The translations under genes were made by a program, and so were the position numbers. A stretch of DNA of 64,000 bases from Zelonia costaricensis (Eukaryota > Euglenozoa > Kinetoplastea > Trypanosomatida > Trypanosomatidae). A model generated the notes under the pieces. That model did no database searches. It worked only from the letters and a program-made list of their open reading frames with translations, and was not told the origin of the DNA. Shown here piece after piece: positions 17,703 through 47,564 of the stretch (positions are counted from its first letter, which is position 1; each line of letters begins with the position of its first letter). Location: positions 1 through 64,000 of the forward strand of contig JASAOO010003497.1 in assembly GCA_030849075.1 (NCBI GenBank). The letters run 5' to 3'.

Positions 17703-19004
17703 CTACCCGCCGAACAGGTCGTCCATCCACTTGGTCGCGCTAAACGGCACCGCCGCCGGCAGAGGAGTGGACTGCGGCTGCTGCTGCTGCTGCGACGGGC
17801 ACGCCGTGGGTGCTGACGGCAACGGCACGCTGCTGGCCGACGCAGTGGGCGGCGCCACGTGGGGGCGACTGCGCTCGTTGCCGGAGTCCGAGTCGTCTTC
17901 TGTGGTGTCTGACGTGGCGGAGGAGAGTGCGCGGGGTGCAGGTGCTGCAGAGTCGGGCAGAGTTGCCTCTCGCTCCTCTTCGTCGCTGTCGATAAGGGCG
18001 CCCCGCAGAGCGGTGGACGGTGAGTCGGCAGGCTCGTGCTTCACAACACGCGCACGCGTCCCTGCCGGACTGCGCTGCCGCCTACGGCCTGCACGCGACG
18101 CCTCTGCCTTGACGCCGTGGGCAGCCGCAGCAGAGGGCCGATGCGCCACCGGCCCCGCCGCCGCCGCTGCCGCAGCGCGCTTCACTCGCTCCAGCTCCGC
18201 GGTGAGCTCGCCTATCTTGCGCTTCTTCTCGTTCAAGATGCCCACCGCACTCTGCAGCCACCCCTCCTCACTCTCCCGCGCCGCTGCCACGGCACGCGCC
18301 TCCAGCTCCAGCCGCAGCTGCCGCGTCTCGAGCAGCGCGGAGGTGAGGGCGAGCCGCGTGGTGTGAAGGCGGCGTGACTGGTCGGCGAAGAGGCGGCAGA
18401 AGAACGCGAAGGCGGTCGTGCCGTGGCCCAACACTGCCGCCCGCCGCGTCGCCCTGGAACGCACCTCCGGCTCGGCATACAGCTCCGTGTGAGCGAGCAT
18501 GAAGTGCGGTGCGCCGCCGCTGTTGGTGTCACTCGTGCCCGTCGCCGTCGGCTGCATGGCTAGGCGCAGCTCGACCGCCCCCATGCTGACGCCCGGACGC
18601 GCCGGTGGCACTGAGCAGACCTCCACCACGCTGTTCTCGCCAGTACCAGCGCGGTGCAGCAGCGCGTCCTCCAGCAGGCGCCGGTACAGCGCAGCATCCA
18701 TGCTGGGCGGGGTGAGGGAGGTGACGGCGAGCGCGTCAGGCGCCACGGTAACCGCCGCCGCCCCGCCCACCTCGGCAATGTCGATGACGCAGAAGTCGAC
18801 GAGGTCGGAGGCGCACGTCAGGCGCACCCCTTCACCGTTGGTGCTCAGCAAACTGCCTGGCACCGCTTCCCCCGCTGCGGGGCACGTCGCGTAGCACACA
18901 ACGAGGAGAAAGGTATTGGAACCGGTGCGGTCACAGGGCAGCACTGCGGCCCACCGCGGCTGCTGAAGGGGCGCGGCGCCGTCCGATGTACGCGCCGACG
19001 ACAT
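17703..19004 (-). CDS. XRCC4: XRCC4-like protein (putative NHEJ scaffold)
   Basis: A 433-residue protein that starts at the first ATG (MSSARTSD). Layout as I read it: a globular beta-rich head (about 15-190), a long alpha-helical or coiled-coil stalk (about 197-278), then a disordered acidic/Ser-rich tail. The stalk contains 'WLQSAVGILNEKKRKIGEL' (249-267), which closely resembles the human XRCC4 stalk segment containing 'LNEKKTKI', the region that binds DNA ligase IV. The last residues, 'KWMDDLFGG', recall the 'DLF' end of human XRCC4. The tail has KxEP-type patches and a poly-Gln run. XRCC4 family members dimerise through the stalk and scaffold ligase IV in end joining. Trypanosomatids have Ku but are generally reported to lack classical NHEJ, so this may have another role. 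Other XRCC4-superfamily members (XLF, PAXX, SAS-6) are alternatives. Confidence 0.68.
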   Translation of the reverse strand: MSSARTSDGAAPLQQPRWAAVLPCDRTGSNTFLLVVCYATCPAAGEAVPGSLLSTNGEGVRLTCASDLVDFCVIDIAEVGGAAAVTVAPDALAVTSLTPPSMDAALYRRLLEDALLHRAGTGENSVVEVCSVPPARPGVSMGAVELRLAMQPTATGTSDTNSGGAPHFMLAHTELYAEPEVRSRATRRAAVLGHGTTAFAFFCRLFADQSRRLHTTRLALTSALLETRQLRLELEARAVAAARESEEGWLQSAVGILNEKKRKIGELTAELERVKRAAAAAAAGPVAHRPSAAAAHGVKAEASRAGRRRQRSPAGTRARVVKHEPADSPSTALRGALIDSDEEEREATLPDSAAPAPRALSSATSDTTEDDSDSGNERSRPHVAPPTASASSVPLPSAPTACPSQQQQQPQSTPLPAAVPFSATKWMDDLFGG

Positions 19005-19879
19005 GGTGATGGACGCCGCTGCAGGGCGAAGAGGCAGAGCAAAGGGACGTCTAACGCGCGCTGTTGCTGCCAATGCTTGTGCCTGTCCGTGTATGAGTGT
19101 GCGTCTGTGTCTGCGTATTTGTGTGCGTGGGCGCTGCCCCGTTGCACGCTGATGTCCGTGCAGTCCGTGGACGACGGCCTCTGCGCTCAGCAAAGGGAAG
19201 AACGAGAGGAAGTGAAAGCATAGCACCGGGGCGACATTGAAGGTACAACGAGCTGCGCCAAGACCAACATGAGGTCGCTGCTCGCGTGGCGCCGACGACG
19301 CCAGGAGCCGCGAACGGATGAGGGAGGAGTCGGCCCCTCTCTTCTCCTCCCCGCTGCCGTACGCCGTGCAGGCCCCTACGTGACGACACAGCGAACAAAG
19401 ACGTTGACTGGGTCAGCGTGTGTCGCGCTCTGCCGGAGTCCGTCTTGATGTCGGGCCACACGAATGCTTGTCTGGGCGGGAGGAAGGCCATCAACGTGTG
19501 GGCCTGCGTGTGTTTCTGCCGTGTGTTTTTTTGTGTGTATGTGTGTGTGGTTGGGCCGGTGAAGAGGAAGAGCGCACGCAGGCCCACCATAACGAGGTGG
19601 GCGACGGAGTCGCTGCACGTCCTATCGCTCGTTCTAGGTCTTTGAAGCTCGACGACCTCTCGACACTCGTCTCCCCAGACCCCCCCCCTGCGTGCCATGC
19701 AACACGCACACACACGTGTAGCCGCGACTGCTGCCGCGGCGCCATCGCCAAGTCGCCCAGGAAAAGAAGCAGACAGACCGCAGCGCCGTGCGGAGCACGC
19801 GAGGCACCAGGAGGTGTAGGTACACACGTCCCACCCTCCCTACGCCCCGCCGCAACACGGACTCTCCTCGGCGGCATCC
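19005..19879. other. Intergenic region
   Basis: About 875 bases between the first MDH gene and the XRCC4-like gene, with a GT-rich patch near 19500-19550. No gene is seen. The open frames here are extensions of CA repeat translations. Confidence 0.65.
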
Positions 19880-42734: not shown

Positions 42735-43658
42735 TCACCAGTACTGCGGATACGGCGACCGAGACGGGATGAGGTTGTTGAACAGCCACCCGCACACGCT
42801 CGTGAATACGGCGCCGAAGAGGACAGGCGTGATGACAAAGAGGAACCCTTCATCCTTGTAGTAGGCGTTGATCGTGCTCGTCGCGGCGGAGATGACGGTG
42901 GCGCTGGCAGGTGGGTGCATGGTGTTTGTGAACATCATAAGCACCAAGTGCAGCGCCACGCCAATGGCGCCGGCGCAGTGCTGGCCAAACGGCTGCTTCC
43001 CCACTGGGCGAAAGGCGTTGGTGAGGGCGATGCCGATGATCGCGGCCGTGACGTGGGCGACAATCACGTTGCGCGGCTGCGCTATGGGCGCCTTTGGGAC
43101 GGCGAAGATGACGGTGCAGGTGGCGCCAAAGGCCGGGAGGAAGGCAGAGAGGGAGTGGTTGACGAGAGGGTAGAAGCCGTAGTGCTCAATTAGGCCCATC
43201 AAGACGAGAGTGAGACAGACGAAAACAAAAGCGATGAGCTGATCCCACGACGGGTAAAAGCCGTAAACATCCAGCGACTGGTCAAAGCCGGTGAGGCGCC
43301 GCCAGTACCACGACGGGAACCGCCTCACAGACGGCCAACCGTGCGGCGCCTTCACCTCCTTCTTCTCCATCGCCATTCGCGCGGCCTCCACACTTGCCAC
43401 GCTGGCCGCCTCGTTCTCCAGCACGGCGGTGTCACTGCTACCGGCACCGCCTGAGACACCGCCCGGCCGCTCGACTTCATCGACAAACGGTTCGTGCATC
43501 GCCGTATCAGAAACCTCCGACTCGGAAAGCTGCATCCCGCCAGCGCCAACCGACAGCCGCGACTCGACGCGGCGCGGCTCTGCCGCCGCGAAGCGCTGCT
43601 GGTCGTCGCAGCGGGACGCCACATCGGCCTCATCCAACCTGAGAGGCGATCTCGCCAT
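42735..43658 (-). CDS. HPP-family integral membrane protein, copy 1
   Basis: A 307-residue protein. An acidic, disordered cytosolic N-terminus (1-105) is followed by an HPP domain with about five hydrophobic segments (139-157, 170-188, 198-214, 228-244, 272-293). The family's naming motif is intact in 'TNTMHPPASAT' (244-254; His 248, Pro 249, Pro 250). Other hallmarks are 'LPAFGATC' (174-181) and the C-terminal 'GWLFNNLIPSRSPYP'. HPP proteins are widespread in bacteria, algae and plants, where a chloroplast member has been linked to nitrite transport. Their role in trypanosomatids is unknown to me. The next gene upstream encodes a paralogue, so the pair arose by tandem duplication. Confidence 0.9.
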   Translation of the reverse strand: MARSPLRLDEADVASRCDDQQRFAAAEPRRVESRLSVGAGGMQLSESEVSDTAMHEPFVDEVERPGGVSGGAGSSDTAVLENEAASVASVEAARMAMEKKEVKAPHGWPSVRRFPSWYWRRLTGFDQSLDVYGFYPSWDQLIAFVFVCLTLVLMGLIEHYGFYPLVNHSLSAFLPAFGATCTVIFAVPKAPIAQPRNVIVAHVTAAIIGIALTNAFRPVGKQPFGQHCAGAIGVALHLVLMMFTNTMHPPASATVISAATSTINAYYKDEGFLFVITPVLFGAVFTSVCGWLFNNLIPSRSPYPQYW

Positions 43659-44385: not shown

Positions 44386-45144
44386 CTACAACCAAACCGG
44401 GTAGCAGTGCCGCCAAGGAGTCAAGTTATTGAACAGCCAGCCCAAGAAGACGATGACGCACGGGCCCAGTGTGGCTGGGGTCACCATGAACATGAACCCC
44501 TGGTCATGCATCTGACCATAGAGGTGGAACGCCGCGAGGCATGTCGTCGCCGAGGCCGACGGCTGTAGTGTGCCGGTGAGCATCATGAGCGCTGTGATTA
44601 TCGCCACCGCGAACGCGCAGGCAAGCTGCTGGCTCAGTGGCTTCGGTAGCGAGTTGAATATGTGTGCCCACGCCACCCCGAGGAAAGCGCCGACGATGTG
44701 GGTGAATACGAGCGCGCGGGGCTGCGCGCCTGGCGAGGTGAGGAGGCACATGACAAGACAGCACGATGCGCCAAACGACGGCAGGTAGGAGAGCATGCCC
44801 AGGTCATAAGGCTCCAAGCCGAAGTCTTCGATAACCGCCAGCACAATGAGCGTAATGGCAGTGAACAGGAACGCTGGAACGCCGTCCCACGAGGGGGCGA
44901 ACAGCGCCGGCCCGGGCTGCCCCGCACCCTTCAAGCGGCGCAGATACACTAGCGCGACGTTCTCGTGCTTGCGCTCCACCTCCTCTACCGAGACCTCTGC
45001 GCCGGCGCCGCCACCCTCCAGGTGATTACCGGGCTCACTCGTTGGCGGGATAGACACCATGGGGCTCACTGCCAGCGCGGCATCGTGTGGACTCTGTTCG
45101 GTGGCGGCAGCACACGTGCCGGGGGCCGAATAGGGGTTGGGCAT
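44386..45144 (-). CDS. HPP-family membrane protein, copy 2 (HPP motif lost)
   Basis: A 252-residue paralogue of the neighbouring HPP protein. The fold is preserved ('LPSFGASCCLVMCLL' at 121-135, 'GWLFNNLTPWRHCYPVW' at the C-terminus) with about five membrane segments. The diagnostic motif is changed: 'TGTLQPSASAT' replaces 'TNTMHPPASAT', so His becomes Gln 194 and the second Pro becomes Ser 196. The cytosolic N-terminus is shorter than in copy 1. The frame continues upstream to an ATG at 45642, but that part looks like untranslated sequence. A strong pyrimidine tract and AG sit just before the chosen ATG. If His-Pro-Pro is functional, this copy must work differently. Confidence 0.88.
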   Translation of the reverse strand: MPNPYSAPGTCAAATEQSPHDAALAVSPMVSIPPTSEPGNHLEGGGAGAEVSVEEVERKHENVALVYLRRLKGAGQPGPALFAPSWDGVPAFLFTAITLIVLAVIEDFGLEPYDLGMLSYLPSFGASCCLVMCLLTSPGAQPRALVFTHIVGAFLGVAWAHIFNSLPKPLSQQLACAFAVAIITALMMLTGTLQPSASATTCLAAFHLYGQMHDQGFMFMVTPATLGPCVIVFLGWLFNNLTPWRHCYPVWL

Positions 45145-47564
45145 GCTAGGCAAGGAAGAGAGAAAGCCAGAGCTTGGGAGAGCGGGAGAGGGGCAGTGGC
45201 GCACGACGAGTGTGCGATCCTGAATGCGGGCAGAGCCGGTGCGTGCGCTCCACCTCTTTGGACAAAGCAGCCTGTGGGCCGAGTACCTGCAAGTGGAGAG
45301 TGACGCGGTCGGGTTGGTGCTCGGCACACGCACAACACGGTGGGCAAGAGGGGAGGGAAGAGTGAAGTGGCGGAGCATTAGAGGCGATGATGAAATCCGC
45401 TGCAAGGCTGAGAGGAACCAACAAACACGACGCGACCTCGAGCAGACCATGCGCTGCGGTGCAGCCCTTCCCAGCACGTCCGGCAGTCGCCAGAAAACCC
45501 AGAGGGGATGCGCGCAGCGGCACATGACATCGGCGCCTTGTGGCGACTTCGGAGCGTTCACAGGCCCCTCTCCCAACGCGCTCCCGCACGCGCTCAGCAC
45601 ACGATGGCCCACAACGCGCAGGATGCTACTCCTGTGAAACATGCCGGGCCGCTCGCGCCAGCGACGGCTGTCTCGTCTTCCTTGCGTCAGTCCCCTGCCT
45701 CCTGCTTCACCTTGTTTTTCGTTTGCTGGAGTTCAAAATGCTACGTGACTGCGTTCCCGCGTTAGGCAGAGTGGGCCGGCCAGTCCGTGTAGGCGTCTTA
45801 GTCGTGCGACGGACTGCTGCCCTGAGCGGGTCGTGGTGTCTGCCACCGCGTTGTCGATCGTTCGTCCCCTCTCCGAGCGGCCGGGTGCGTGGCTGCGTCG
45901 CCGTCTTGGTGCGTGTGTAAGTGAAGGAGGTGGTGTCTGTGCGTCCCTGTCCCGATAGGCCAAAAGGGGTGGAGGAGGTTGGGTGGTGTATACACGGGCA
46001 AGGCGACACGAATAGGGAAACAAAGAGAAGCGAGTCCGCGATAGGGAGAGGCGGGCAAGGGAGAAACAAACACAAGAGACACGGTGCTTTGCATTGCTAA
46101 CACACACACAACAGCCAGGCAGAGGTGAGACCAGATCGAGAAGGGGGACAGGCCGTGCTGTGGGAGGGGGGCGGAGAGAGGGAAACAAGAAAAAGAGGAG
46201 ATGGCGTGCAGGCGGGTAGTGAGCTGTGAGGCGGACTGTAAGAGGAGCCACACGCGGACAAACAAGGCGCACGTCTCGTGCAACGGCCACGTAGGAGGGA
46301 GGAGAGGGGGCGGGGGGGGGGGAGTAGGCGCAGAGCGAAAACGGCAGGTCACAGGACGCGCGGCGAGCCGTAGCGGCGGCACAAGTCACCGAGTGAGGGG
46401 GCGCCAGCCACTCCTACGCCTTCGCTCTGTGCCCGCCCCCTCGACGCGCGCTCGCCCACTCGAAGCCGCCGTGCAACCTTCACCTCTTCCCCTCTTCCCC
46501 CCCCTTCCCCACCCGCCTACTGGCACCGACTGTGCTGTTGTCAACCCCGGGGGGCGCGCCTGCACCCGCGCCGGCGTCTGGGCCGGCTGCACAGTCGCCG
46601 CCGCGCTTCACACGCCTCCCTGCCGCGCCGTCCTCATCCCTCCGCAGCCAGGCCCTCCGCGCAGGGCGCCGGGCAGGGGTTCGCTGTCAACGTGGCGCTG
46701 CAACATGCACTTGCCTCTGCCGCCCTCCTCTCCACCTCCAGCGGCGCAGGGAGCGGCAGAAGCGGAGGAGCAGCAGTGCGGCGCACGCATCGCGGTACGG
46801 GGTGGGTTGCGAAGGATTGAGGGGGAGGAGGGTGGTGCCGAGCGGGCACCGTGTCACGAGCGGGGAAGCGCAGCGACACCAAGGTGGCACCCTAAGATTC
46901 ACGCACCCAACACCAACTTGGGGCGCGAGTGAAGCGAAAGCACGAGGAAACTGTGCATCCGTCCGCCAGCTCGCCGAGGCGGGGCGCCGCGCCATTCAAG
47001 ATTAAGCCAGGAGCCCCGCGCCTGAATCCGCGTGCAACACACACGGCAGGGCACGCCTGCACTCATGAACGCGCCCAGAGACAGGTGCAGTACACTGCAG
47101 GGCCGCGGCTGGGCGAGGTGAAGAAGAAAAAAAGAAAGAAGCGCTCGCAGACGACGTCAGGAGCCGCAGAGGAAAGAGGAGGCGGACAAGTGTGGGGGTC
47201 GGGCACGCAAGACAGTCACGAAATCGGCAAGAAGCGTCAGGCAGTGTACATGCCATCTCCCCCCCCCCTCTCGCCGGTCCTCGCTCCACGCGTCCCGAAC
47301 ACCACGTCACGCTATCGCCACGCGCGTCAGCGTGTCCACCCCCCCCTCCCCCTTTCCAGCTGCCAGCTGCGTGGTGGAAGCGCCACATCTTGCTCAGAGC
47401 ACGCGCGCTAGCAGGGGACGCGCGTGTGTGTGTGTGTGGGTGGGTGGGTGCGTGTATAAAGTTGTGCCTGAGGTTGTTGGGCGACGTGAGAGACCGGGTG
47501 GTCGCGAGGTACGGGTAGGACGTTTTTGTGTGCGCCCCGTTCCGGCGGGGTGCCAGGCAGTTCT
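45145..47564. other. Intergenic region
   Basis: About 2.4 kb between G6PDH and HPP copy 2. It has patches of mixed composition and a GT tract near 47424-47440, shortly past the G6PDH stop. Open frames of 120-240 codons are low-complexity. No gene is seen. Confidence 0.6.
45146..45147 (-). promoter_or_regulatory. Possible spliced-leader acceptor AG for HPP copy 2
   Basis: A classic pattern on the minus strand: a C/T tract at about 45149-45165 followed by TAG one base before the ATG. It supports the 252-residue start over the upstream in-frame ATG, although a one-base leader beyond the spliced leader would be unusually short. Confidence 0.35.

Follow-up and report, generated by a model that had tools for sequence, protein, structure and literature searches.

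In trypanosomatids, the retention of Ku without the other components of the end-joining machinery has been termed a notable anomaly (PMC6635534), and canonical end-joining activities are described as apparently absent (PMC8085331). According to these and related sources, DNA ligase IV (Lig4) is absent and Ku retained in all species examined, apart from the jaculum lineage, where Ku has been lost too (PMC6635534), Lig4 is missing from T. cruzi, T. brucei and Leishmania (PMC12578213) and, of ligase IV and its partner XRCC4, Leishmania is without both (PMC9241504); PMC8377203 and PMC12153298 have no direct bearing on the question. No paper describing a trypanosomatid with ligase IV or XRCC4 was found in the open-licence PubMed Central literature searched. 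Here we describe a gene that probably encodes a divergent XRCC4 (protein P0001) in a 64,000-nucleotide stretch of contig JASAOO010003497.1 of Zelonia costaricensis (hereafter the window; its assembly comprises 28.67 Mb in 755 contigs), together with genes for DNA ligase IV, Ku70 and Ku80 in the same genome.

The candidate gene is a 433-codon open frame with an ATG start (Table 1). Residues 249-267 of its product read WLQSAVGILNEKKRKIGEL and its C-terminus reads KWMDDLFGG; the stalk motif and the terminal DDLF noted in a sequence-only reading of this DNA are thus both present on the reading frame. Human XRCC4 carries LVLNEKKTKI at residues 182-191 and, as in the human protein (PDB 1ik9, 3ii6 and 7lsy), LNEKKxKI of the candidate occupies the same place on the stalk in an ungapped pairing of 72 residues extending back from the motif. 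This place is the ligase IV-binding end of the human stalk, in agreement with the earlier proposal that the best conserved part corresponds to the ligase IV contact region, and at the level of the motif the candidate appears to possess the ligase IV-binding stretch. A DNA pattern for LNEKKxKI matched the 28.67-Mb genome only once, at the candidate gene, while its backward-read control gave 0 matches. Further likenesses to human XRCC4 are the C-terminus (DDLF compared to EDLF) and the basic and acidic stretches of the tail. Unlike human XRCC4, the candidate has a head that is unrecognisable by sequence and a length of 433 rather than 336 residues, and only 15 of the 72 paired stalk residues are identical (17/72 for P0002, the closest relative of the candidate), including 10 (P0002: 12) of the last 27. 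The human query comprised 334 residues and, compared to chain 7lsy_F (336 residues), has two residues missing and one different. The stalk score of the candidate was reached by 23 of 5000 class-preserving shuffles and 13 of 5000 free shuffles (2/5000 and 1/5000, respectively, for P0002).

When the stalk of P0002 alone was compared to Pfam, the best family was XRCC4_CC (PF21924; E = 7.7e-4; 20.0 bits, below the cut-off of 27), with an E-value of 0.013 for the whole of P0002. As human XRCC4 residues 117-194 fill positions 1-78 of this profile, the human LNEKK begins at position 68; P0002 residues 28-69 lie on positions 38-78 with one inserted residue, and LNEKK of P0002 also falls at position 68 if the insertion precedes the motif, as it does in the pairwise alignment. 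By hhalign to human XRCC4, the candidate ranked first among 197 frames (25.05, compared to 23.75 for the next other frame; the candidate's own frame is present twice in this list), with a probability of only 3.3%.

In addition to the motif, its place on the stalk and the layout of the protein, the assignment to XRCC4 rests above all on the fact that the genome also encodes ligase IV, Ku70 and Ku80. The DNA ligase IV gene is located on contig C34 (L004; 249-4214, minus strand), contrary to the earlier premise that trypanosomatids lack this enzyme, which is wrong for the present organism. Of Lig1, Lig3 and Lig4, the encoded protein resembles Lig4 most closely and, like human DNA ligase IV, has the catalytic domains, a first BRCT domain (BRCT1) and an XRCC4-binding linker; unlike in the human enzyme, the second BRCT is not recognised by Pfam and is modelled with low confidence. 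The Pfam BRCT match reached 18.4 of the required 21.3 bits, and PF11411 matched neither the linker nor any other part of the genome, with 0 control genomes matched in the genome-wide run, so that absence is not shown. A protein search with this ligase (7,991 candidates scored) found 35 proteins, including P0003 (96% identity) and a Novymonas esmeraldas protein deposited as DNA ligase-like protein (P0004; 64% identity), which is the nearest named relative in the tree; five matches carry the name DNA ligase 4 or LIG4, including one from Diplonema, and the name of P0006 is of a style used for Angomonas. In a 38-row tree (the 35 matches and the three ligases of the present genome), ligase IV grouped with P0003 and the Novymonas protein (100/100) inside a group of six (98/97), in the part that holds the Lig4-named rows and apart from the organism's own ligases I and III. 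Because of the midpoint root, ten long end branches and the unusual make-up of several rows, including that of ligase IV itself, the deep branches are unsure; the overall picture is consistent with descent within Euglenozoa. Besides ligase I, the genome encodes a ligase III-like enzyme of 1228 amino acids (contig C745, L005; 4072-7758, plus strand).

The codon usage fit was 0.965 for ligase IV and only 0.900 for the candidate, compared to 0.921-0.969 among seven genes of the window. As the codon usage of ligase IV fits and the tree places this enzyme beside Novymonas, contamination was rejected as the simplest explanation for its presence. The same observations are also compatible with a mixed culture of two trypanosomatids; contig C34 comprises only 10,958 bases.

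Both Ku subunits were found, as the sequence-only reading had assumed. Ku70 (L007) contains Ku_N and Ku and among solved structures matched Ku70 only (9 of 9 rows), while Ku80 (L006; 796-3132, plus strand) contains Ku_N, Ku and a C-terminal Ku_PK_bind domain (PF08785; 1.5e-21) and matched Ku80 only (11 of 11 rows). In animals, PF08785 is the domain that binds DNA-PKcs. The acidic C-terminus of Ku80 reads DDWMDGIL. Genome-wide, Artemis-type DRMBL, DNAPKcs_CC3 and XRCC1_N were not found, and as 0 control genomes matched either, their absence is not shown.

By several results, sequence alone falls short of establishing an XRCC4 identity of the candidate. While human XRCC4 passes all three Pfam profiles PF06632, PF21924 and PF21925, none of these exceeded its cut-off for P0001 or P0002; PF21924 gave no match on P0001 at all, and the head profile PF06632, the check proposed earlier, did not match the candidate, which counts against the XRCC4 reading. 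The similarity of the head to that of human XRCC4 is at chance, its score being reached by 1216 of 3000 shuffles. The genome-wide run of PF21924 listed a kinesin (L008) and another coiled frame (L009, presumably prefoldin-like) and not the candidate gene. Moreover, among 784 frames of at least 150 amino acids, four others scored 56, 52, 47 and 46 against the human stalk, compared to 43 for P0001 and 53 for P0002. The AlphaFold2 (AF2) model of the candidate, built on two sequences only, is of too low quality to speak for or against an XRCC4 fold (predicted local distance difference test (pLDDT) 41.8; predicted template modelling score (pTM) 0.22). PF21924 alone was rejected as an identifier of the candidate, as the kinesin and the coiled frame score higher genome-wide; this profile also matched 1 of 14 control genomes, a bacterium, below the cut-off. 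The XRCC4 profile found no match over the genome, and as 0 control genomes matched either, absence is not shown. Searches of the Protein Data Bank with the candidate and with the P0002 stalk, and of NCBIfam, gave no lead. The earlier wording that the protein closely matches XRCC4 is too strong, as the similarity beyond the motif is weak, with 15/72 identities along the stalk and a head that scores like shuffled sequence.

As generic coils from the same genome equal or beat the candidate on the XRCC4 stalk by plain scores, and as the head is unrecognised and a weak Pfam match to CENPU also lies on the coil, the candidate might be an unrelated coiled-coil protein in which LNEKKRKI is coincidental, with the true XRCC4 located elsewhere, too diverged to be seen, or absent. 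We consider this unlikely, since the motif is unique in the genome and located at the XRCC4 stalk place, the protein ends in DDLF, and XRCC4 is to be expected in a genome whose ligase IV carries an XRCC4-binding linker. CENPU as the identity of the candidate was rejected (E = 0.091; 12.8 of 27.8 bits).

In the AF2 model, the head shows strands at residues 18-23, 31-38 and 71-78, a helix at 104-116 and strands at 144-149 and 169-174; the stalk is a single helix (197-283) with block pLDDT of 68-92 from residue 221 onwards and lower values before. This predicted order, in which only the helix from about residue 221 is confident, would fit the XRCC4 head and stalk if two strands were missed. The layout also fits the wider XRCC4 superfamily, and the candidate might be an XLF-, PAXX- or SAS-6-like member or a repurposed XRCC4 with no role at ligase IV; in addition, the XLF head profile PF09302 is not listed for the candidate and found no match in the genome, where absence is not shown as 0 control genomes matched either. 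The best-matching piece of the candidate is the ligase-binding end of XRCC4, however, and ligase IV is present, which makes such an assignment very improbable. Overall, a divergent XRCC4 is the probable identity of the candidate, favored by the place of the motif, the layout, ligase IV and Ku despite the lack of a significant profile match; this identity is the weak link of the whole case and is unproven by sequence alone.

P0002 (386 amino acids; from another dataset) shares 93% identity with the candidate over 89% of the candidate's length (head, 141/147 in the part covered; stalk, 77/85; tail, 140/153). As identity is high in all parts, the pair is too close for conserved parts to be distinguished. 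Each protein search with the candidate scored the approx. 8,000 candidates with most shared words, and a second search with residues 10-272 found P0002 as the sole match. Among viral contigs, 8 stretches fit the search pattern and 0 encode a relative of the candidate. A comparison of the protein to the six-frame assembly (28.67 Mb) found the gene itself and one weak match (E = 0.7; 22% identity); therefore, no second copy was seen.

Table 1. Features of the candidate XRCC4 gene, in window coordinates
Feature	Residues	Position	Strand	Basis
Coding sequence of XRCC4 candidate (433 aa)		17703..19004	-	Open frame; single copy seen; relative P0002
Putative head	1-195	18420..19004	-	AF2 strands and helix, pLDDT <50 throughout
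Putative coiled-coil stalk	196-283	18156..18419	-	Single long predicted helix
LNEKKRKI motif	257-264	18213..18236	-	Human XRCC4 counterpart LNEKKTKI at 184-191
Low-complexity tail	284-433	17706..18155	-	Basic (GRRRQR) and acidic-serine stretches; direct reading
C-terminal DDLF	428-431	17712..17723	-	Human XRCC4 end EDLFDEI
Pyrimidine-rich stretch and AG, likely trans-splice acceptor		19019..19046	-	Direct reading; acceptor use inferred

Upstream of the candidate ATG, a pyrimidine-rich stretch is followed by an AG 14 bases before the start codon, which is likely a trans-splice acceptor; a spliced-leader pattern gave 0 matches. The neighbours on the same strand are a Nop25-like gene and malate dehydrogenase. 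Two adjacent genes with HPP transmembrane domains (42735-43658 and 44386-45642, minus strand) are also present in the window. The assembly contains DUF1935, a domain typical of kinetoplastids, and its G6PD matched entries presumed to be from Leishmania with 1094 bits, compared to 791 bits for those presumed to be from Trypanosoma cruzi; this is in line with a trypanosomatid related closely to Leishmania.

If the candidate is XRCC4, two copies would be paired through the coiled-coil stalk, each with a head and a flexible tail, and the LNEKKRKI end of the stalk would be gripped by the linker that follows BRCT1 of the ligase IV from the same genome. The candidate would thereby stabilise ligase IV and recruit the enzyme to DNA ends occupied by Ku, in the service of classical end joining. 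As ligase IV is present, neither the new ligase partner nor the repurposed fold considered in the sequence-only reading is needed; the likely meaning is simpler, in that this lineage still has ligase IV and, probably, its XRCC4. These data suggest that XRCC4 is able to escape profile searches in trypanosomatid genomes. It also seems rather likely that certain trypanosomatids akin to Leishmania have inherited Ku, ligase IV and XRCC4 vertically as a complete ligation system and perform classical end joining, in which case the pathway would have been lost several times within the family rather than once before its origin. A lineage with ligase IV and a probable XRCC4 provides the missing comparison, by which it becomes directly testable when the loss took place, how it affected genome structure and what the older role of Ku was.
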